Source: a virus
Direction: 5' to 3' (one strand)
Length of the DNA stretch: 32,402 nucleotides
IMG/VR virus record: IMGVR_UViG_3300035698_000680
Span: 1 to 32,402 of that record
A program made the translations under genes and the position numbers. Under the pieces are notes generated by a model. The model saw only the letters and a list, made by a program, of their open reading frames with translations, did no database searches and had not been told where the DNA came from. Positions 2,318 to 21,987 of this stretch are shown here, piece by piece (the stretch's first letter is position 1; each line of letters starts with the position of its first letter).

Positions 2318-2667
2318 TCCGCTAATTTAGCCTCATCTGGCGGATCAGGAATATCTCCCCGGAAAGTAGCCCTAGCGACCATATGCCGCACTCCCACGAT
2401 CCCAGAGCGCGCCTTAAGGAGCGTCTCCAGGTTCCGCTTCTGAGCTTCCCAGATAGGAGTAAGCGCGATCATCTCCGCCTCCACTGGCCTAGAAATCAGA
2501 ACCTCATCCTTAGCCCCGCCGTGCTTTCCCTGGACCCTTCCTAGCTCATCTAAATACTGGAGATCCACGTAAACCTCCTCCAGAGCTTCCGCCATATCCT
2601 GAATAGCTATCAGAGCTCGCCGCGTGGAAGTTGACATCTCAGGATCAATATTAGGGCGCTTAGACAT
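2308..2667 (-). CDS. hypothetical protein (119 aa) after DNA polymerase
   Basis: Begins in a TAATG overlap with the polymerase stop. It is mostly helical: residues 12-45 (RRALIAIQDMAEALEEVYVD) are amphipathic, and residues 65-95 form another helix with charged flanks. There is no cysteine cluster or obvious catalytic motif. No family recognised. The tight coupling to the polymerase suggests expression with replication and perhaps an accessory role, which is inference from position only. It ends 10 bp inside the following HNH gene. Confidence 0.65.
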   Translation of the reverse strand: MSKRPNIDPEMSTSTRRALIAIQDMAEALEEVYVDLQYLDELGRVQGKHGGAKDEVLISRPVEAEMIALTPIWEAQKRNLETLLKARSGIVGVRHMVARATFRGDIPDPPDEAKLAEWG

Positions 2668-4475
2668 TATGCGAACCTCACTAATTCCGTAGGTAGAGAA
2701 TCAATATCGTAGCCGTGGCCCCAGGACCGTCCGTAAATCTCACCAGACGCCGTAAGGGAAACCTCCCCAAAATCCGTAGTCATAATATCAGCGACCCGTC
2801 CCACGATATCCGGAGCGTTAACCATAGGAGCCTGACCCAGAAATTCATCATGGATAGGGAGTAGGATCCCAGGCCAGATTTCCGCATCATCGCGGAGACG
2901 TAACATAGCCTCCGCCAGAACGTCCCTAGCCGTAGACTGGACCATATAGTTAGTAGCCGCGTACATCCTATCCTTATCCAGCGGAAGTAAACGCCCGCTA
3001 GGAGTCTCGATAGGGCGCGCTCCCTGCCCGCTCCGCTCCTGGAGACGGTTACCGTAACGCTTCACCTCAGGGTAAGCCCTATGGAAACCCTTAAGAGCCG
3101 CTCTAGCTTCCTCAAAGGAAACCTTAGCCCGAATGGAAAGCTTACCCGCTCCGCCCCCGTAAACGATCAGGAAATTAACCATCTTAGCTAGCCGCCTATC
3201 GATAGCGACTAACTCCGCCGTCGTGGTATGGAGATCGATCCCATTATGGATAGCCGCTATCATCTTCTTAGCGCCCGCCATAACCGCCAGGACCCTAAGC
3301 TCTATCTGATCGTAGTCCACGGAGTAAAGAACGTGCCCCGGATCCGCTACCAGCATCCTCCGGATCAGAGCGTCCCTCGAGGGTAACTGGTGGAGAGGAG
3401 GATCAGAAACCGCCATCCTAGCGGTACGCGCCTTAAGAGCCCGGATAGAAGGATGGATACGATCCTCAGAATCCTTAGCCTCCAGCATAGATTCCACGTA
3501 AGACGTACGTAACTTCCCCACCTTAGCGTAAGCCTGGACCATCTCTACCGCTGGATGATTGATACCGTCCAAAGCGTCCGCGGACACCGATAGCTTCCCG
3601 CTAGGAGTCCGAACCGTAAGATCAGCCCCAGCCTCCAGGAGAGCCTTAAGAGCCTGATCGTTAGAGTTAGGATTCTCGATACCCATATGCTGGAGCTTCT
3701 GGAGGAGAATATCCTCCTGATCTAGCAGATACTCCCTTAAAGCCTCCGCATAAGGTACATCCATCAGGATCCCCGTACGCTGGATATCAGCCGCAGCCTC
3801 CTGAGTAGCGTACTCAAAGGAGGCCAGATCCTCCAGCCCCTTCTCCTGGAGCTTCTCAGAGAATATCTCAAAGAGCCCAGCCGTTATAATACAATCCACG
3901 CCCGCGTAATGCTCATAGCTTGGCTCCCCGAACGGTACCCGTAGGAACCGCTCATCCATAGGAACCTTATTCTTACGCGCCCAGTCCTTAAGCGCCTTCT
4001 CCCCATCCCTGAGAGCCGGATCTATATAATGCTCCCCTAGAGGCTTAAGAGCCATTCCCACGCCACCATCAGGACGACCCCGCGGATCCAGAAGATGAGC
4101 CATAACCGCCGTATCAGAACCTAACTTCCATAGCGTATGCTTATAGCCAGCCGCCTCCAGAGAAAGAGCGTCAAAGGAGAGATTATGAGCTACCGGACGC
4201 TGGAGGACCTTTAGAGCATCCTGGACCGCCGTACGGAAATCCTCATATCCTTCCTCCACTGGAATAACCCACGCTTCCCGCTTAGTACCGAACTGGACCA
4301 GCCGGAGCTTCCAGTCCACGCTAAACATCCGGAAGTCCGTAGACTCCGTATCTATAGCTACTGGCCTATGAGCGTTATCGTACACCCATTCTAGGAACTC
4401 CTGGAGATCCTCAGGGACCGTAGCTACCCTAGTGGTAACCGGAGCATCCAGGATCTCATCTGTATAAGTTCTCAT
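2667..4475 (-). CDS. DNA polymerase I family (family A) with 3'-5' exonuclease
   Basis: A 602-residue replicative polymerase. The N-terminal proofreading domain shows ExoI D42-x-E44 (IDTE), ExoII around D102 (AHNLSFDALSLE) and ExoIII Y190xxxD194. The polymerase domain shows motif A at 385-394 (SVDYDQIELR, catalytic D387), motif B with R428, K431, Y439 and G440, and motif C HDE at 542-544. There is no 5'-3' exonuclease domain, as usual for phage enzymes of this size. It overlaps the primase-helicase stop by 4 bp (ATGA), so initiation, unwinding and synthesis are encoded together. The catalytic residues look intact. Whether it prefers unusual nucleotides cannot be told by eye. Confidence 0.95.
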   Translation of the reverse strand: MRTYTDEILDAPVTTRVATVPEDLQEFLEWVYDNAHRPVAIDTESTDFRMFSVDWKLRLVQFGTKREAWVIPVEEGYEDFRTAVQDALKVLQRPVAHNLSFDALSLEAAGYKHTLWKLGSDTAVMAHLLDPRGRPDGGVGMALKPLGEHYIDPALRDGEKALKDWARKNKVPMDERFLRVPFGEPSYEHYAGVDCIITAGLFEIFSEKLQEKGLEDLASFEYATQEAAADIQRTGILMDVPYAEALREYLLDQEDILLQKLQHMGIENPNSNDQALKALLEAGADLTVRTPSGKLSVSADALDGINHPAVEMVQAYAKVGKLRTSYVESMLEAKDSEDRIHPSIRALKARTARMAVSDPPLHQLPSRDALIRRMLVADPGHVLYSVDYDQIELRVLAVMAGAKKMIAAIHNGIDLHTTTAELVAIDRRLAKMVNFLIVYGGGAGKLSIRAKVSFEEARAALKGFHRAYPEVKRYGNRLQERSGQGARPIETPSGRLLPLDKDRMYAATNYMVQSTARDVLAEAMLRLRDDAEIWPGILLPIHDEFLGQAPMVNAPDIVGRVADIMTTDFGEVSLTASGEIYGRSWGHGYDIDSLPTELVRFA

Positions 4476-6901
4476 GCATTCTCTCCCATATCGTTAGTAT
4501 CTGTATAGATACGTTTACGCTCAGCCTCAGTAGTGAGACGTACCCCAGCTATAAATACAGTACCTCCCGCTCCCCTCTTCTTAACTAATCCTCTGGACTC
4601 TAACTCCCTACCTAGCCATCTGGAAGAGTAAGCCGTCTCAGCCGCATCCTCAGCGAAGTCCTCCCACGCCTTAAACGCCGCGGAAAGCTTAACCTCTTCT
4701 CCAGGAGCTTCCACCAGGACCCCAGGGTAATAGCCCGCCAGGAGGTTAGCGTTATCCCGGAGGTTAAGTGTAGCCGCCACTACCGTATCTGGCTCCATAA
4801 GCCCGCTCTTATACCACCAGGAAGCGCCGCGCACCGTCCAGGCCAGAACGCCCTCAGCCTCCTCCCGGAGCTTTTCCCCTAGGTAATGATCCCGCTCCTC
4901 AGGCTTAAAGTACCTAGCGAACGGAACCAGCTTAACCCGCCTCCATAGACCCTCGTCCACTCCCCGGAACTGAGGGAGATGGTTAGTGGCCATAAGGATA
5001 AGATGGCGCGGACGGAACTCCATATCCTCCTGATAGAGATGACGCGCGGTTATCGTATCAGACCCCGTCATAGACTTAACCAGAGCCTCCCGGATAGGGG
5101 CCCCTTGCTCCCCCTCAGCCGTAAGCGTAAGCCGGTTACCGCGGAGCCTAGCTAACTCAGGACTAGCGCCCCCTCTAGACCCAGCCCCCTCAAAGACTGA
5201 GAAAGGAACCGTCTTAACAATAGGACCAAAGATATCATGCAGAGCCTCAAAGAGAACCGTCTTACCGTTAGCGCCATGACCAAAGAAGATAGCCATAGCT
5301 TGCTCCCTAGTGGAGCCCGTAATTCCGTAGCCTATAAGCCGCTGGAGGAAATCCACCATATCGGAATCCTCCACCATAATCTCCTCGAGGAACTTTTCCC
5401 AGCGTGGCGCCTTAGCGTCCGGATCATACGTAGTATCTATCCGGTTAGACATCAGGTAAGCCGGATCCTCCGGACCTAGGCCCCCCGTACGTAGGTTCAC
5501 TACTCCGTTAGCCACTAGGAGGAGATCCTCCCGGTTATCCATATCGTCCGGTTCTACCTCAGGGACTAGAGACGCTATCTCCTTTAGGACCGCATCCCTA
5601 AAGTACGACTGACCCAGCTTACGCCCGATACTGATAGCAAACTCCATTCTAGGAGTACGCTCATCCTCAGGTACGGACCCACCGTACCGGAGGAGGACGT
5701 TACGGAACTTATGGAGCGTAAACCGGAGCTTATGCTCAGACCCAGGCCACCAGACCCCATCAGCATAAACCACCGCTCCATAGCCGCGGATATAGATAAC
5801 GTCCAGATCATTCTCCCGCGCCCACTTAAGGAAAGCGTCCGCAACGCCCGCATTAGTAGAGTCCTCAATACCCCCACTCAGAGGGTCCTTAAGAGTTGAC
5901 ACCGCGGAGTCAGGAATACCAGCCCGGATAGCCTGCATAAGAACGCTCTTAAAGCTATCAGGATCCGCTTCTCTCCAGTCGGTTAGATCCCCGTAATCCT
6001 CCGGAACCAGGAGCGGACGCACATCCAGCCCGCGCTCAGCCAGGGACTTACATAGAGAATCTCTAAATGCATTACCAGCGTTATCATTATCGCCGACAAC
6101 GGAAACCACCATCCCTCCTAGCTTCTCAGCTAGCTCATCTAGGACTATCTCACTCTGAGATAGAGCCGCTCCTCTCAACACTATACTAGTAAGCCCAGCC
6201 CCATAAGCGCTAAGCCCATCAGACGGACCCTCAGTTATGACAGTATGGTCTAACCCATCATCCCGCCGCATATATGCCACTTTAGCCCAGGACTCTCCGC
6301 CCTTACCGTTAGCTAAGCCGGTCCAGCGTACCTCATGATCCGTTAGAGCCCTAGCCTGAGCGCCCATAGGCACGCCCTCCCAGGAAAGGAAAGGAACCAC
6401 AAGCCGCGGAACTGCATTCCAGGAGCGGAGCGTATAACCCCACTCCACGGAATAAGCCGCCGTAACCCCCAGCTTAAGCGCGTCCGCATCCATAGGACTC
6501 AGACCGAACCTATCAGCGATATAGTCCAGACCCATCTTACCTACCGGATCATACTCATCCAGCTTACGATTAGCGGAACGGACCAGGGTAGCTAACTCCT
6601 CGAGCGGTTCCCCCTCAATAGGAGCCGCCTCTCCAACCATAGTAACTCCCTCCATATCCTCAGGCCATCCCCAGGAACCTCCTAGCCCGCTCTGGAGCCC
6701 GCGCTCCTTAAGAGCCTCCACGATCTCCGGAAACTTACATCCAGAGCGACAGTACATAAGGAGCTTACCTGACGCGTTAATGTCAACTTTCAGAGAAGCG
6801 TTACTATCCTCATGAGAGGGACATATAGCTAGAACCCCAGCGCCCTGACGCTTCCAGCCGTCCAGGAGATCCAGAACTGCCCTAGCGTCATTACTCACCA
6901 T
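4472..6901 (-). CDS. primase-helicase fusion (CHC2 zinc finger, TOPRIM, SF3 helicase)
   Basis: An 809-residue multidomain replication protein. C27, H30, C51 and C55 form a CHC2-type zinc site for template recognition. A TOPRIM primase core follows at about 218-275 (ITEGPSDGLSA with E224; VVGDNDNAG with D271 and D273). The C-terminal half is a D5/SF3-type AAA+ helicase: Walker A GHGANGKT at 541-548, an acidic Walker B-like LTLTAEGE at 591-598, sensor ATN at 638-640 and an arginine finger near R654. It would unwind DNA and lay primers for the polymerase encoded next. Its AGGAG ribosome site lies in the 3' end of the preceding zinc-ribbon gene, which it overlaps by 11 bp. Confidence 0.93.
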   Translation of the reverse strand: MVSNDARAVLDLLDGWKRQGAGVLAICPSHEDSNASLKVDINASGKLLMYCRSGCKFPEIVEALKERGLQSGLGGSWGWPEDMEGVTMVGEAAPIEGEPLEELATLVRSANRKLDEYDPVGKMGLDYIADRFGLSPMDADALKLGVTAAYSVEWGYTLRSWNAVPRLVVPFLSWEGVPMGAQARALTDHEVRWTGLANGKGGESWAKVAYMRRDDGLDHTVITEGPSDGLSAYGAGLTSIVLRGAALSQSEIVLDELAEKLGGMVVSVVGDNDNAGNAFRDSLCKSLAERGLDVRPLLVPEDYGDLTDWREADPDSFKSVLMQAIRAGIPDSAVSTLKDPLSGGIEDSTNAGVADAFLKWARENDLDVIYIRGYGAVVYADGVWWPGSEHKLRFTLHKFRNVLLRYGGSVPEDERTPRMEFAISIGRKLGQSYFRDAVLKEIASLVPEVEPDDMDNREDLLLVANGVVNLRTGGLGPEDPAYLMSNRIDTTYDPDAKAPRWEKFLEEIMVEDSDMVDFLQRLIGYGITGSTREQAMAIFFGHGANGKTVLFEALHDIFGPIVKTVPFSVFEGAGSRGGASPELARLRGNRLTLTAEGEQGAPIREALVKSMTGSDTITARHLYQEDMEFRPRHLILMATNHLPQFRGVDEGLWRRVKLVPFARYFKPEERDHYLGEKLREEAEGVLAWTVRGASWWYKSGLMEPDTVVAATLNLRDNANLLAGYYPGVLVEAPGEEVKLSAAFKAWEDFAEDAAETAYSSRWLGRELESRGLVKKRGAGGTVFIAGVRLTTEAERKRIYTDTNDMGENA

Positions 6902-7701: not shown

Positions 7702-7879
7702 CAGCCTGCGGATCCCAGTCCTCTCCAGCGGAGAAGAAATCATAGAACTGATCGAACATATCCACGGTAGGGCCATCCACTCCAGCCCTAATATCCGCGG
7801 AACTAACCCGCTCTACCTGGATCTTAGCCGCCATGATAGCCGCCACTCCAACCAGGAAACCCAGGATAAAGTTATTCAT
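7688..7879 (-). CDS. single-pass membrane protein (63 aa)
   Basis: Starts in a TAATG overlap with the gp3-like gene. Residues 3-19 (NFILGFLVGVAAIMAA) form one hydrophobic segment right at the N-terminus, followed by a 43-residue acidic soluble tail. It is an N-in or N-out anchored peptide, or possibly a secreted peptide, although no clear cleavage site follows the helix. No family recognised. It ends 14 bp inside the resolvase gene and has backbone codon use. A role in membrane-associated replication or in superinfection control is possible but unsupported. Confidence 0.6.
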   Translation of the reverse strand: MNNFILGFLVGVAAIMAAKIQVERVSSADIRAGVDGPTVDMFDQFYDFFSAGEDWDPQADDGS

Positions 7880-8556
7880 TAGAACGCTCCTTGTAATCCA
7901 TCTACGCCACCGCGCTCAGGAGCGGAGAAAGCCGGAACCGTCCACGTATGAGACTTACCCTCAATAGTATCTATCGAAACCTCAGTAACGTAAGGAGTAG
8001 AGAGACCAGCGTCCTCCGCCGCTTCCTCCAGCTTATCGAACTGAGAAACCGTAGAGCGACTATTCTTAGAGAGGATAAACTTACCCAGATCCTCTAACCC
8101 CACGATACGCCCGAAGATAAGACCGTCTGGCTTACAGGCCAGACCATCCTTAGAAGCTTCCCAGAAGTCCTTAGAGTTAGCCCCATAGGTAGCCGCGCAC
8201 TTACAAAGATCCCCGTCCGTCATCTTCTCTCCATCGCACTGGCGGAGCGTCTTCCACGTACTCTGACTCTTAAGGATCATAGCCGTCCGGAGGTAGTCTA
8301 CCTGGAAGGTAATATTATCCCCCGTACCTAGCTCTACCTGGAAAGGCTTACGATCATAATCAGTCTCCACCACCTCCACTCCATAGAAGTCCGCCAAGGA
8401 CTCCGCTACGTCAGGATCATCAGTACGGATAATCCAGAAATCCAGGGACTCAGGCTTACCGTTAACTTGGCGACCGTTCTTAAGCTCCCCCACTACCGGA
8501 GCATCCTCAGCGTCCCCAGAACGTGGAGCGCCCGTATTTAGAATCGTAATAGCCAT
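7879..8556 (-). CDS. phiC31 gp3-like recombination directionality factor / DNA-metabolism protein
   Basis: A 225-residue protein whose layout resembles the Gp3-like family of phiC31: an N-terminal NGRQVNGKPESLDFWIIRTD segment followed by ADFYGVEV, then a cysteine cluster (C107, C118, C120 and C141, CX10CXCX20C) likely to bind zinc, then a GLEDLGKFILSKNS segment. In phiC31 this protein switches the serine integrase to excision. Homologues are common in replication clusters of phages without that integrase, where they may have a DNA-replication role. No integrase is visible in this window. AAGGAG sits about 11 nt upstream of the start. The family call is by eye. Confidence 0.6.
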   Translation of the reverse strand: MAITILNTGAPRSGDAEDAPVVGELKNGRQVNGKPESLDFWIIRTDDPDVAESLADFYGVEVVETDYDRKPFQVELGTGDNITFQVDYLRTAMILKSQSTWKTLRQCDGEKMTDGDLCKCAATYGANSKDFWEASKDGLACKPDGLIFGRIVGLEDLGKFILSKNSRSTVSQFDKLEEAAEDAGLSTPYVTEVSIDTIEGKSHTWTVPAFSAPERGGVDGLQGAF

Positions 8557-8703: not shown

Positions 8704-8730
8704 AAGATATGACTAGCCCTATCACTCATC

Positions 8731-8928
8731 CCCGACCACGACCTCGACCACTACCTCTACCACGCCCCCGACCACGACCTCGACCCCGACCACGACCCCG
8801 ACCTCACCCTCCCCCTCGACCCCGACCTCGACCCCGACCACGACCTCGACCTCGAGGTCGACCACGACCTCGACCCCGACCACGCCCCCGACCACGACCA
8901 CCACGCCGACCCCGACCCCGACCCCGAG
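8731..8928. repeat. hexanucleotide simple-sequence array (CGACCN)n
   Basis: About 200 bp made of roughly 33 degenerate units of CGACC plus one variable base, with a few interruptions (CTACCT, CTCACC) and two local inversions containing GAGGTCG. It is open in several frames, reading Arg-Pro on plus and Gly/Ser/Arg/Trp or Val/Glu/Gly dipeptides on minus. The neighbouring backbone has nothing similar. It could be a slippage-prone tract encoding a variable low-complexity tail, or a non-coding structure. Confidence 0.85.
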
Positions 8929-10189: not shown

Positions 10190-10380
10190 TCGACCCCCTG
10201 AGCATTAAGTACCCGCTGGAGCCACTCCATCAGCGTATCAATCTCATCCCCCGCGTACTGAGTCTCCCCACCTCTCTCCGGATCTCCGAACGAAAGAACA
10301 GTAACCGCCTCATCTACGATCAGGGTAACTATCGTATCCACATCTACTTCTAGCATGTAACTCTCCGAAGCACTACTCAT
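10186..10380 (-). CDS. third, diverged copy of a tandem small-protein family (64 aa)
   Basis: Shares the N-terminal MSSASE, the EVD..T.V.LIV.(D/E)A core and the LSFGDPE motif with the two genes upstream, but its C-terminal half (EIDTLMEWLQRVLN) is different. It begins in the same ATGA overlap and RBS context as the other copies and ends in an ATGA overlap with the dATP/dGTP hydrolase gene. Probably a helical, acidic protein. Function unknown. The conserved core with a variable C-terminus suggests paralogues adapted to different partners. Confidence 0.65.
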   Translation of the reverse strand: MSSASESYMLEVDVDTIVTLIVDEAVTVLSFGDPERGGETQYAGDEIDTLMEWLQRVLNAQGVE

Positions 10381-10574
10381 CTTCCATCTCCCTTAGCTAG
10401 CTTCTTAGCCTCTCCAGTTATATAGCGTACCACTATATCCGGAGTCACCTCGTACTGAGTCTCCCATCCCTCCGGATCTCCGAACGAAAGAATAGTAGCC
10501 GCCTGATCGTAGATCAGGGCAACTAGCGTATTCAAATCTACTTCTCGCTTATCATTCTCCGAAGCACTACTCAT
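10377..10574 (-). CDS. second copy of a tandem small-protein family (65 aa)
   Basis: Differs from the copy upstream (10571-10768) at only six of 65 residues (positions 5, 22, 41, 43, 44 and 45), so the duplication is recent. The core is LNTLVALIYDQAATILSFGD, a hydrophobic helix, followed by a basic C-terminus (EAKKLAKGDGR). The copies are joined head to tail by ATGA overlaps, each with its own GGAG. No family recognised. It sits between a RecB-like exonuclease and a dNTP hydrolase, so DNA metabolism or host-defence antagonism is possible but unproven. Confidence 0.65.
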   Translation of the reverse strand: MSSASENDKREVDLNTLVALIYDQAATILSFGDPEGWETQYEVTPDIVVRYITGEAKKLAKGDGR

Positions 10575-10764
10575 CTTCCATCTCCCTTAGCTAGCTTCTT
10601 AGCCTCTCCAGTTATATAGCGTACCACTATATCCTGGGCCAGCTCGCACTGAGTCTCCCATCCCTCCGGATCTCCGAACGAAAGAATAGTAGCCGCCTGA
10701 TCTACGATCAGGGCAACTAGCGTATTCAAATCTACTTCTCGCTTATCATTCTCCGTAGCACTAC
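10377..10764 (-). repeat. two 194-bp near-identical tandem units
   Basis: Positions 10571-10764 and 10377-10570 are nearly the same at DNA level, including the ribosome site (GGAGATGGAAG before ATG). A third, diverged unit follows to 10186. Because each unit ends with the start signal of the next, copies can be added or removed without breaking the operon. Confidence 0.85.
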
Positions 10765-10768
10765 TCAT
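10571..10768 (-). CDS. first copy of a tandem small-protein family (65 aa)
   Basis: Begins within the end of the RecB-like exonuclease gene (8 bp overlap, GGAG about 7 nt upstream) and ends in an ATGA overlap with its near twin. It is 59 of 65 residues identical to the next copy. The changes cluster at residues 41-45 (CELAQ here, YEVTP there), which hints at a contact surface under change. No known motif; probably helical. Confidence 0.65.
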   Translation of the reverse strand: MSSATENDKREVDLNTLVALIVDQAATILSFGDPEGWETQCELAQDIVVRYITGEAKKLAKGDGR

Positions 10769-11717
10769 CTTCCATCTCCTTAGCTAGCTTCTTAGCCACG
10801 CGCGCCTTACGCGCCGCCTCAGTCTTAGTCAGAGCCTTAATAGTCTTCTCCAGATCCAGTATATCATCCGGTTCCCAGGTATCCACTCCAGCGATAGGAT
10901 TATAAAGGACCGTATCCTTAAGCTCCCTCTCCCACTGGAAGACTACCAGGAGAGCCTTAAAGATGTCAAAGACCTCAGGACCGATCTCTACAGGGACCAG
11001 ACTCCAGGAGTCAGGACGTAGATGGATAACTAAGCCCGTAGTGGAATGCTTAGCCCACGGCTCCGGAACATAGTTACCCTCAGCGTCCGCTACCAGCTTC
11101 TCCTCAGCCGCGCGATAGGCCGCTAACTGGATAGCTACCTCCGCGTGGACCCCAGAGCGCGTAGTCTTAACGTCTCCCAGGATAGGGACCCCAGGACCCT
11201 CATACCAGCTAGGAGGAGCTTCCATATTTGACCACGTAGTGTCAGGAATCAGGAGACTCCTATCCAGCGTACCGCTATAGCCGTGAGCACTAGACCATAT
11301 GGTAGTCTCTACCTCCAGGATCTCAGCCTCAGTCTCCTCCCGGAAAGCCAGGTAACCCCTAGCGTAAGGAAGGAGATCCTTATGGATCCGCGAGGGAATG
11401 CCTCCCAGGTTATCCACGTCCTCAGTCATAGCGTGAACCTCAGTACCCTTAACCGCCGCGACATCAGTAGTCTGCATAGGAGCCCGCTTAAGGAAGTTAA
11501 TAGCGTCATCCTTCTGACCCTTAGAAACGAAACCAATAACTTCCGCCAGATTCTCCACCGCTTTCTCAGCCACTACCTTAGCGCTCCACCATCGTAGGAA
11601 GTCCTTAGGTAGCATATTCACGACTGACGTAACCCCTACCGCCTTCTCCTTAGTCACTGGATGGATGTAGTACCTGGAGTTACCGCGCTTCATAGTCTTA
11701 ACCGCAGGAGTAGTCAC
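10761..11717 (-). CDS. RecB/Cas4-like PD-(D/E)XK exonuclease
   Basis: The start is taken as GTG at 11717, which overlaps the upstream stop as GTGA and has GGAGGTGG in front; an ATG at 11771 would overlap by 58 bp. The 318-residue product carries the RecB-family nuclease set: GTEVHAMTED (H95), YSGTLDRS (D152), ILGDVKTTRSG (D182, K184) and the QLAAYRAAE helix (Q197, Y201). Phage enzymes of this type process DNA ends for recombination or degrade host DNA. The C-terminus is a basic, Lys/Ala-rich helix. All catalytic residues appear present. Confidence 0.85.
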   Translation of the reverse strand: MTTPAVKTMKRGNSRYYIHPVTKEKAVGVTSVVNMLPKDFLRWWSAKVVAEKAVENLAEVIGFVSKGQKDDAINFLKRAPMQTTDVAAVKGTEVHAMTEDVDNLGGIPSRIHKDLLPYARGYLAFREETEAEILEVETTIWSSAHGYSGTLDRSLLIPDTTWSNMEAPPSWYEGPGVPILGDVKTTRSGVHAEVAIQLAAYRAAEEKLVADAEGNYVPEPWAKHSTTGLVIHLRPDSWSLVPVEIGPEVFDIFKALLVVFQWERELKDTVLYNPIAGVDTWEPDDILDLEKTIKALTKTEAARKARVAKKLAKEMEDE

Positions 11718-12109
11718 TCTCCCACCTCCGGATCCAGGAGCCCTAACTCCGCCATATTCTCCGGAGTACACTCCTCATTAAGAAGCTCTAGGATGATCTG
11801 AGGGATAACGCTCATACAGTCTATGGTATGCATGATCGTAGGAACATGATACCCTACCGCTCCCAGACCAGTAGCCATCAGAGCCGTATCATGGATAGCC
11901 TTAGCGAACGTAAAGAGTACGTACTCATCCTTAGACATCTGATCCCGCCATCCACGTAGATCCATAGCGGCCATATCAGCCATAGCCCGGAGCTTAGGGT
12001 TATCCCAGGCTAGCCGCCTAGAGATCATAGCAGACTCTCCGATAAGCTTAACCGTACTCTCCATCATCTCCTCAATCGTTACCGTAGGACGCTCTTTCTC
12101 CTCAGTCAT
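11714..12109 (-). CDS. hypothetical helical protein (131 aa)
   Basis: ATG at 12109 has AAGGAG 7 nt upstream and follows copy 2 of the repeated intergenic element. The protein is almost entirely helical and methionine-rich (MMESTVKLIGESAMISRRLA; a long Met/Ala/Leu-rich core to residue 115), with an acidic C-terminus. There is no signal peptide or clear membrane helix, although residues 75-110 are rather hydrophobic. No family recognised. GTGA coupling to the exonuclease gene suggests it acts with it, perhaps as a recombination partner. That is inference from gene order only. Confidence 0.65.
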   Translation of the reverse strand: MTEEKERPTVTIEEMMESTVKLIGESAMISRRLAWDNPKLRAMADMAAMDLRGWRDQMSKDEYVLFTFAKAIHDTALMATGLGAVGYHVPTIMHTIDCMSVIPQIILELLNEECTPENMAELGLLDPEVGE

Positions 12110-12118
12110 GTAATCTCC

Positions 12119-12188
12119 TTCTAGTTATAATGCCTCTTCTAACTGTAATTATGTCCAGGATCCCACGTAATACAGGGTCACCTCCTAA
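12119..12188 (-). promoter_or_regulatory. intergenic repeated element, copy 2
   Basis: On the minus strand GGTGACCCTGTATTA, a GGG-containing middle and TGGACATAATTACAG match copy 1 at 632-703, with further matches in TAGAAG and AACTAGAA just before the ribosome site. CTGTATTA (12175-12168) and TAATTACAG (12151-12143) form the same imperfect inverted repeat. It sits between a stop and the start of the 131-residue gene. Candidate promoter or leader element. Confidence 0.55.
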
Positions 12189-12454
12189 ATAACGCTAGAA
12201 ATCCTGACCGCTCCCGGACCCTTAACCCTCAGCGTACGCCACTGAGCCCTAGAAGGAGTCCGCGTAGCCGATACCCACCAGCATAGCGCCTCCACTATCT
12301 CAGTCTCAGGACCGCTCTCAGGCCAGTAGTCCAGCCGTCTGATCTTAAAGTGGCCAGACTTACCCACCACCTTAACCAGTACCCCAGGTACCAGGGTAGG
12401 TGCTCCGCGCCTCTTCTCCAGCGTCCACTTATTAAGAACTTCCTTACCTTCCAT
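12185..12454 (-). CDS. small basic beta-rich protein (89 aa), first gene of the early operon
   Basis: The frame is open from a GTG at 12472, but ATG at 12454 with AAGGAGAG 7 nt upstream is the better start. The product is basic, with alternating strands (PTLVPGVLVKVVGKSGHFKI, WRTLRVKGPGAVRIS), resembling the small SH3-like barrel proteins common in actinophages. I recognise that style but not a firm family. As the first gene downstream of the double operator it is a plausible early DNA-binding or regulatory protein. Copy 2 of the repeated element separates it from the rest of the operon. Confidence 0.6.
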   Translation of the reverse strand: MEGKEVLNKWTLEKRRGAPTLVPGVLVKVVGKSGHFKIRRLDYWPESGPETEIVEALCWWVSATRTPSRAQWRTLRVKGPGAVRISSVI

Positions 12455-12500: not shown

Positions 12501-12522
12501 TAGTGACTGAATACAGTCACTA
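12501..12522. promoter_or_regulatory. operator-like palindrome, left copy
   Basis: TAGTGACTG-AATA-CAGTCACTA, perfect 9-bp arms around a 4-bp centre. It is identical to the copy at 12565-12586 and was not found elsewhere in the window by eye. It would cover the start of transcription from the candidate minus-strand promoter. Confidence 0.8.
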
Positions 12523-12534
12523 TCCACCTAGGGA

Positions 12535-12564
12535 CTAATAAGTACTTATTCATAGCTAGGTCAA
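12535..12564 (-). promoter_or_regulatory. candidate early promoter between the operators
   Basis: On the minus strand TTGACC (12564-12559) is followed after 18 bp by TATTAG (12540-12535), a fair sigma-70-like pair. The -35 directly abuts the right operator, and the left operator begins about where transcription would start. It would drive the 89-residue gene at 12454 and the DNA operon behind it. The -10 is imperfect. Confidence 0.4.
12537..12550. promoter_or_regulatory. central 14-bp palindrome
   Basis: AATAAGTACTTATT is a perfect palindrome at the axis of the 86-bp element, lying in the spacer/-10 part of the candidate promoter. It may be a third protein site or a melting point. Confidence 0.7.
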
Positions 12565-12586
12565 TAGTGACTGAATACAGTCACTA
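12565..12586. promoter_or_regulatory. operator-like palindrome, right copy
   Basis: TAGTGACTG-AATA-CAGTCACTA, the same sequence and orientation as the left copy, immediately upstream of the candidate -35 box. Confidence 0.8.
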
Positions 12587-12853
12587 AGTGAGGGTATGAT
12601 CCTCGCGTATGGTGGGAGAGGAGGTCCCCCCGCTTGTAACTACTATAACGGCATCTGAGCGGAATACTGCATAGGCCATATGGCCCTATGACTAAACCGT
12701 ACCGATAGCGGTACTAATTAGCCATCTCCGTATTACCTCTGACTCATATAAGACGGAAGTGTATGAAACTAAGGGGCTGCCAGACCCCCTAACTTCATAC
12801 ACTCCCTCTGACACTCAGATGTCAACTAGGTAATATGGCCTAACGTAAAGAGA
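12587..12853. other. non-coding stretch with several palindromes
   Basis: No convincing gene. It holds GGCCATATGGCC (12674-12685) inside an imperfect CATAG/CTATG stem, GTACCG-ATAG-CGGTAC (12699-12714), a 46-bp hairpin (12758-12803), TGACAC...TGTCA (12809-12824) and a perfect TTGACA on the minus strand (12825-12820) without a good -10. A 20-codon plus-strand frame starting at 12595 looks like chance. The cluster of palindromes would suit a replication origin or a multi-site control region. Confidence 0.5.
12758..12803. other. 46-bp interrupted hairpin
   Basis: AGTGTATGAA (12758-12767) pairs perfectly with TTCATACACT (12794-12803). Inside, TA and GGGG pair with CCCC and TA around an 8-base loop (CTGCCAGA), with small mismatched bulges. 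No U-tract follows on either strand, so it is not a simple terminator; an origin structure or a small structured RNA is possible. Confidence 0.5.
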
Positions 12854-12931: not shown

Positions 12932-13633
12932 TTATGTTAGTGATAGTACGCTCGTATCGTTCAGATCATACGACTCCGCGCTGATATCTGACGTAGATAG
13001 AAAAACAGCGGAAGGATGATAGATGTTAACGTTACCCGCCCCAGACAGACGCCGCGCCTGGATAGAGAATACCACGGAGTCCAGATCATCCCCCGTCCCT
13101 CCGGACCATCCATCATCATAGCCAGATAGAGAGTTAAGATTAAGCCGTACCTGGAGCGTACGGTCAGTCAGAGCCGGAAGCGCCAGAGAAGCGGAATCCT
13201 CAGTGGAGCTATGCGTGGCCCTCAGCCGAACCTCCCCAGTAGTGGCCGCGTCCACAGTAACAGCCATAGCTATTCTAAGGATAGGATGTCCGGTAGCTAT
13301 CATGGATAAAGCGTACTGAGTATCGAACGATCCAGACGAAACCGCCTCATAGTCTGAAACCTTCTGGACTCCGCCCAGGATAGGAAGAGGAAATAGAGGA
13401 CCCTCATTACCTACCATAAATACGATACGTCCAGCATCATTACGGACCACCAGACCGAAATCCTCTAATCCACTAGAAGGGTTAGTAAACTCCCCCGCCT
13501 GGACTCTGGTAACCGTACCATCATGAGCGGACGCCCTTTTAAGCGGATTATTCCGCTCCAGGAGAGAGATCCTAGTCTCCAGTCCCCTCATATACCGCGC
13601 TAAATCTGGCGGTAGTGCAACATCATCAGCCAT
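12932..13633 (-). CDS. minor tail / tail-tip protein (233 aa)
   Basis: Last gene of the structural operon, with AAGGAGG upstream. Residues 12-32 form a short trimeric-type coiled coil (MRGLETRISLLERNN). Residues 35-85 resemble a small beta domain (GLVVRNDAGRIVFMVGNEG), and the remainder is Ser/Thr/Asp-rich beta sandwich. An N-terminal coil followed by beta domains is typical of proteins at the tip of siphovirus tails that touch the cell surface. No enzymatic motif. The family is not certain; the position and layout give the call. Confidence 0.6.
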   Translation of the reverse strand: MADDVALPPDLARYMRGLETRISLLERNNPLKRASAHDGTVTRVQAGEFTNPSSGLEDFGLVVRNDAGRIVFMVGNEGPLFPLPILGGVQKVSDYEAVSSGSFDTQYALSMIATGHPILRIAMAVTVDAATTGEVRLRATHSSTEDSASLALPALTDRTLQVRLNLNSLSGYDDGWSGGTGDDLDSVVFSIQARRLSGAGNVNIYHPSAVFLSTSDISAESYDLNDTSVLSLT

Positions 13634-21003: not shown

Positions 21004-21987
21004 TTAGACCGCGGTATCCGTAGTCATGTAAGTCATAGAAACGATAGGGTTAGTGCCATCGTAGAGCGCCTCAAAGGGAAGCGTCTGGACTGGAGTATCT
21101 TCTACCGCAGCCTTAGGGTTACCGTTAGTCCAGTTAATAGCTTTCATCCGGAGGGAGAGGTAATGATTATGCGCGCCCTCAATATTGGAGCCCGTCCACT
21201 TAAGCTCAATATCTGAAACCGTCTGGCCCGTCCACTCCGCGTAGCGCGTAGTAGCCGTAAGATCCACGCTGATCTCCCCCGTATAACGTGGGATCCCAGA
21301 GCGTACAGGTTCTTTCTTAAGGTTAGAACCGCGGAGGTAACGCCTATCAATCTTAAGCCCTAGATCAGCCTCAAAGGAAGCATCCAGAGCGTCCAGCGTC
21401 TCAGGAGTACCATCAGGATCCAGCGTAACCGTACACTGAGTCCAGTCAAAAGGAGTCTGAGAAGCGATATACGTAGGAGTACCCGCCGCCGTAGAGATGT
21501 CGGAATCCTCAAAGTCATAATCCACGTTAAGCATTAGGAGACCATCTAGCCCCTGGCTGAGCTTCCAGCCCGTAGCCTTAGCGCCATGATACGTATACTG
21601 TTGAGTACCCGTCTCTAGCTCAGGACGTAGGATCTGCATAGTCAGACTATCAGCCGGAGCCGCGGCCGTAGTAGCGTACGTTTGGAGGTAAGCCGCCGTA
21701 GACGCTTGCTGAGTAGGACCAGCCTTAGAACCCAGAAGCCCGCCCAGGAGAAGACCCATACCCTTATTCATAAAGTCAACTTCCAGAGACGCGCCGCCTC
21801 CCATATTGACCGTAATAACTCTATCAGAGCGGAGACCCTGAGTACCAGCCCGGAAGCCGATAGACTCTAGTCTATTCTGCTCCCGCTCAAAGGAGTCCGC
21901 CTTACCCTCATACGCCCTAGCCAGTGTAACCGGAGTACCGTAGGTAGTTTCCAGACCCACCATAACCGCCGCATCTAGAATACTCAT
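21004..21987 (-). CDS. major tail (tube) protein (327 aa)
   Basis: Position between neck proteins and the chaperone, plus the layout GLETTYGTPVTLARAYEG at the N-terminus, ASLEVDFMNKGMGLLLGGLLG, and repeated beta strands (YTGEISVDLTATTRYAEW), fits the phage tail tube protein family whose hexamers form the tube. At 327 residues it is long enough to include an extra C-terminal domain beyond the minimal tube fold. ATGA overlap with the 67-residue gene upstream and an AAGGAG site. No frameshift signal seen at its end. Confidence 0.8.
   Translation of the reverse strand: MSILDAAVMVGLETTYGTPVTLARAYEGKADSFEREQNRLESIGFRAGTQGLRSDRVITVNMGGGASLEVDFMNKGMGLLLGGLLGSKAGPTQQASTAAYLQTYATTAAAPADSLTMQILRPELETGTQQYTYHGAKATGWKLSQGLDGLLMLNVDYDFEDSDISTAAGTPTYIASQTPFDWTQCTVTLDPDGTPETLDALDASFEADLGLKIDRRYLRGSNLKKEPVRSGIPRYTGEISVDLTATTRYAEWTGQTVSDIELKWTGSNIEGAHNHYLSLRMKAINWTNGNPKAAVEDTPVQTLPFEALYDGTNPIVSMTYMTTDTAV

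Follow-up and report, generated by a model that had tools for sequence, protein, structure and literature searches.

The stretch of DNA analysed here (the window) comprises all 32,402 bp of an IMG/VR virus record that is probably a genome fragment, and nearly all of its genes are carried on the minus strand. A symmetrical 86-bp block at positions 12501–12586 is flanked by the end of the structural genes (ORF 12932–13633) on one side and by the early DNA genes on the other, and the first gene downstream of it is an 89-aa ORF (12185–12454, minus strand). The minus strand also encodes a Cas4-like exonuclease of the phiC31 gp1 family (10761–11771), the anchor gene that stands beside the element in relatives, and a primase-helicase (4472–6901); a PolA-type polymerase (2667–4475), a RusA-like gene and a 131-aa ORF are likewise among the early DNA genes. 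An ORF at 7879–8556 encodes an RDF-like protein resembling phiC31 gp3 (E 1e-4), no integrase being recognised in the fragment, and another at 712–1266 is weakly similar to phage sigma factors (E 0.03). Repeats of other kinds occur elsewhere in the window: a 194-bp unit at 10254–10797, repeated in tandem about 2.8 times and encoding three consecutive similar ORFs of ~65 aa; a 6/36-bp tandem repeat (CCCCGA), rich in GC, at 8730–8927 between ORFs; 39/117-bp tandem repeats at 2037–2275 within an HNH-like ORF (1781–2317); and a hairpin at 12755–12806 (arms of 22 nt, loop of 8 nt), possibly a terminator, that lies downstream of the structural genes.

The block is the strongest inverted repeat of the window by a wide margin, with a score of 22 in a scan of the whole window, compared with 12.5 for the runner-up and a maximum of 13 over 15 shuffled windows. 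The pattern TAGTGACTG-N4-CAGTCACTA occurs exactly twice, as exact 22-bp sites at 12501–12522 and 12565–12586 whose centres are 64 bp apart, and these are the only matches within the 32.4 kb even when up to three mismatches are allowed (0.02 expected by chance). Each site is an inverted pair of iterons with GTGACTG half-sites, of the same sequence on both sides (TAGTGACTGAATACAGTCACTA), so that each side of the window block has a single inverted pair, or two half-sites, where most relatives have more. The intervening segment (12523–12564), a candidate melting region, is AT-rich (AT fraction 0.65 vs 0.47 overall) and carries ACCTAG at 12526–12531 and CTAGGT at 12556–12561 in mirrored positions, together with a palindrome, AATAAGTACTTATT (12537–12550), whose centre is the exact midpoint of the two sites. 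Overall, 35 of 43 positions match between the two 43-nt halves. Pattern search and inverted-repeat scan thus reproduce every element of the layout given in the first-pass annotation, namely two identical operator-like sites 64 bp apart, a palindrome at the centre and linkers that mirror each other. GC skew showed no switch at the element and is uninformative as an origin signal.

No relatives of the block were found at the DNA level in phages, or in IMG/VR by exact pattern, and a search of IMG/VR with the window primase as bait gave no matches. At the protein level, the Cas4-like exonuclease has relatives (~40% identity) in phiC31-like phages of Arthrobacter, Microbacterium and Streptomyces; the search returned 248 phage records, most of them ~30–43% identical and phiC31 gp1 included, with further exonuclease loci in IMG/VR (80) and in actinobacterial genomes (22). 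Large inverted repeats containing repeated short words lie upstream of the exonuclease in the first six relatives inspected. Of 110 loci surveyed, drawn from partly redundant records, 68 had a large inverted repeat that exceeded 99% of shuffles, in most cases ~90–190 bp upstream of the exonuclease gene, although a few of the weaker repeats are of other kinds. Counting 8-mers over the 700 bp upstream was uninformative, the signal being swamped by GC-rich coding DNA. Most of the repeats share one plan: two or three iterons of 8–9 bp, an AT-rich spacer that has a small palindrome at its centre, and then the mirror image. The word itself varies by clade (GTGACG, ATGACG, GTGTAG, GTGCAG, GGGACG or GTGAAG, and GGGCAG in Armstrong). 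No clear dyad was seen in Squircle. In Zeta1847, a dense array of GGCGGACG iterons directly follows the integrase (38525–38700), and there is no clear dyad by the exonuclease.

Dimensions are conserved along with layout. The centre between the mirrored iteron sets measures ~46–54 bp in relatives, and among 24 relatives, some of them near-copies of one another, the inner sites are 65–69 bp apart from centre to centre in 21 and 72–73 bp apart in three, next to the 64 bp of the window. An AT-rich centre is present in all of these 24, near-copies included, at an average of 28 percentage points above the locus. The first-pass annotation had regarded the retention of a single site, or a freely drifting spacing, as evidence against its proposal that the whole block is one symmetrical binding unit; the comparison did not refute the proposal but supports it, as the block recurs in relatives and its inner-site spacing is held. 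Judged from these sequence comparisons, the block is one member of a widespread, conserved element of phiC31-like actinobacterial phages.

The element is present twice in nine complete genomes (phiC31, phiBT1, Phives, IAmGroot, Sue2, Honk, Liebe, Attoomi and Armstrong), where the copies are 14–21 kb apart and bracket the early region; in most of the nine, the second copy comes directly after the serine integrase. The phiC31 copies, at 21636–21768 and 40416–40547, are 75% identical, and the second copy of phiBT1 is at 40703–40809. In several genomes, no other inverted repeat ranks above the two copies, which exceed those of shuffled genomes. Both copies of each pair have the genome's own iteron word, which points to a binder acting in trans. 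Two arrays were also detected, by exact pattern, in 11 of 15 IMG/VR contigs, the others having one or none, and one of those contigs being only 18 kb long. The window contains a single copy. We attribute this to the fragmentary nature of the contig: the window ends 12.5 kb downstream of the block, so that, with copies separated by 14–21 kb, a second one would not be expected inside it and should instead lie past the left end of the contig.

What might bind such an element? The 89-aa product encoded next to the block, put forward earlier as a candidate, has no relative in any phage record and therefore cannot be the general binder. We infer instead that the primase-helicase may be the initiator of the element. 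The window protein contains Toprim, D5_N, SF3 and DUF5906 domains, and its nearest PDB relative is 7ola (E 3e-10; named DNA primase by the search tool), which we take to be the SaPI5 primase-helicase. A primase-helicase is present in the window and in 28 of the 30 relatives searched, the two without it being contigs of 13 and 28 kb. Its C-terminal 150 residues (660–809 of the window protein) are predicted to form a winged helix, with a confident core (pLDDT above 85 over most of the core). RFX DNA-binding domains (Z 7.5) are among the best structural matches of this predicted domain, alongside the P4 origin-binding domain 1ka8 (Z 5.5) and the C-terminal part of the PrimPol of African swine fever virus. 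The winged helix is a common fold, and a match between a predicted structure and these domains would not on its own show function.

Covariation may link this domain to the iterons. When all columns of four proteins were scanned against iteron class, the best-associated column was primase residue 776, located in the predicted wing (p = 8e-7 with automatic classes, which misplaced two genomes, Liebe and L155). With curated classes the association is weaker: residue 776 still ranks first (p = 3e-5), but an exonuclease column reaches 8e-5. A K/R pattern in the primase alignment had been noticed by eye before the column scan. A tree built from the remainder of the primase shows four to six changes of iteron class; among four independent pairs, three to four are in agreement and none conflicts, and the sister pair L149 and L150 differ in both the residue and the iteron class. 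A domain-wide partial Mantel test was not significant. Taken as a sequence association, the correspondence between residue 776 and iteron class is suggestive, and the link to a binder modest.

Replicators with comparable components are known from mobile elements, and we compared those of P4 and the phage-inducible chromosomal islands (PICIs) by annotation and literature. In SaPI-type PICI origins, two iteron sets flank an AT-rich region, a plan said to be unique to PICIs; the iteron words vary between elements, the initiator combines a helicase with a separate or fused primase, and the origin, one of which is described per island, is immediately 3′ of the rep gene (PMC6092414). The element described here likewise has mirrored iteron sets around an AT-rich centre, with a word that differs between elements, and a D5/SF3 helicase-primase encoded by the same genome (4472–6901 in the window). 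It differs in position, being located not 3′ of the initiator gene but beside the exonuclease operon, about 5 kb from the primase-helicase gene (in the window, about 5.6 kb upstream of its start), and in usually being present in two copies per genome, in complete tailed phages. The ori and crr loci of P4 carry annotated 8-bp type 1 repeats (GGTGAACA), those of crr being arranged → → ← ← →, and resemble the present element in the GTGA core of the iterons and in their occurrence in both orientations around AT-rich DNA. P4 has two separate cis loci per genome, as do the nine complete relatives, and its primase-helicase, the alpha protein, has a winged-helix origin-binding domain, which the predicted winged helix of the window enzyme resembles. 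However, the two P4 loci are unlike each other and not near-palindromic, whereas those of the phiC31-like phages are near-identical dyads of ~100 bp. The P4 and PICI initiators belong to the same helicase-primase superfamily as the window enzyme, and in layout the element matches PICI origins and is similar to P4 ori/crr. The Bacillus phage SPP1 also has two origin regions in one genome, oriL and oriR, that bind the same initiator, but this initiator is a different one and the helicase system is of the DnaB type.

We weighed a role in replication against other functions. In a phiC31-like phage, the element is probably bound by a replication initiator and most likely serves as an origin, or as half of a replicator made of two parts. 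The first-pass annotation had offered an origin carrying initiator sites as its alternative, and on the sequence comparisons this appears better supported than the operator that the annotation favoured. As an operator, the element would be bound at its two sites by an early regulator, possibly a looped tetramer of the ~190-aa protein encoded immediately upstream in relatives or of some other repressor, that controls the early operon; we consider this unlikely. Its position is suitable, directly upstream of the first early gene, and in phiC31 two members of a family of 13 AGGTTGCCGACTCCCT-like repeats, which are probably early promoters, lie just downstream of the two dyads (21760 and 40567), so that a regulatory role is possible. 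Yet only two of these ~13 repeats are accompanied by iterons, and they are found downstream of the dyad rather than inside it, where the annotation had placed its promoter. The letters of that promoter, TTGACC-18-TATTAG on the minus strand, are indeed present within the window block, but they fail a promoter consensus scan, leaving it a weak claim. The AT-rich centre and the many iterons also exceed what an operator would need.

The ~190-aa gene, at the position of c, adjoins the element in most relatives, but its product has no detectable homologue in the window or at the L018, L019, phiC31, phiBT1, L078–L085 and L092 loci, every one of which carries the element. We also considered whether this protein is a shortened c repressor, and found no detectable homology to phiC31 c. 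Operators of the c repressor itself are, like the element, palindromic intergenic sites in the same phage group; a search of phiC31 for repeated palindromes recovered 16 copies of the perfect palindrome CTACTCACGTGAGTAG, which we take to be the c repressor operator set. This sequence differs from the element between c and gp1 (21636–21768) and does not occur in it, and a c-repressor operator was rejected on these grounds.

It is quite improbable that the element is instead a cis-acting partner site like P4 crr, bound by the initiator and required for replication, with DNA synthesis beginning at a different place or at the other copy alone. The existence of two near-identical copies per genome, and of the same type 1 repeats in P4 ori and crr, would suit such an arrangement, but the full plan, including the AT-rich centre, is present in both copies of a genome, so there is no sequence mark of a non-starting partner. 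A structural site of another kind, with some other protein recognising it as a partition, packaging or termination element or as a recombination boundary, might be suspected from the way in which large palindromic blocks bracket the early region and adjoin the integrase; we regard this as very improbable. Armstrong has two copies and no annotated integrase, no protelomerase-like or ParB-like gene was noticed in a general reading of the window genes, and an AT-rich core with several iterons on either side is more in keeping with an initiator site.

If the element does serve replication, primase-helicase subunits would bind the iterons through the C-terminal winged helix, assemble on both sides of the block, open its AT-rich centre by melting and become loaded as hexameric helicases; with two copies in a genome, these could then act as two origins, or as an origin and a partner required in cis. 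We can tentatively extend this proposal, as a possibility held with less confidence, to a large group of actinobacterial tailed phages that includes phiC31: the duplicated iteron dyad may be the replicator of the group, its two near-identical palindromes bracketing the early region and acting together via the primase-helicase, with a site word that co-evolves with the helicase winged helix, and the window would represent the minimal, most reduced version. PhiC31 and its relatives are standard tools of Streptomyces genetics, and the literature that could be searched yielded no description of where their replication starts. The exact phiC31 coordinates given above, together with a named candidate binder (the primase-helicase, gp9a in phiC31), make the question directly testable. 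If the proposal is true, a layout described as exclusive to PICI origins would also be found, in duplicate, in complete phages.

Two minor features of the exonuclease loci in relatives were also observed. In L012–L017, a recurring leader (TGAGCA ... GGCMAYCTTCT) lies just upstream of the exonuclease gene, and in several of them also upstream of a dNMP kinase gene, and it is followed by a small stem that overlaps the ribosome-binding site. In Attoomi (L014:2194–3228), the ~190-aa protein is fused to an apparent GntR-like N-terminal DNA-binding domain.
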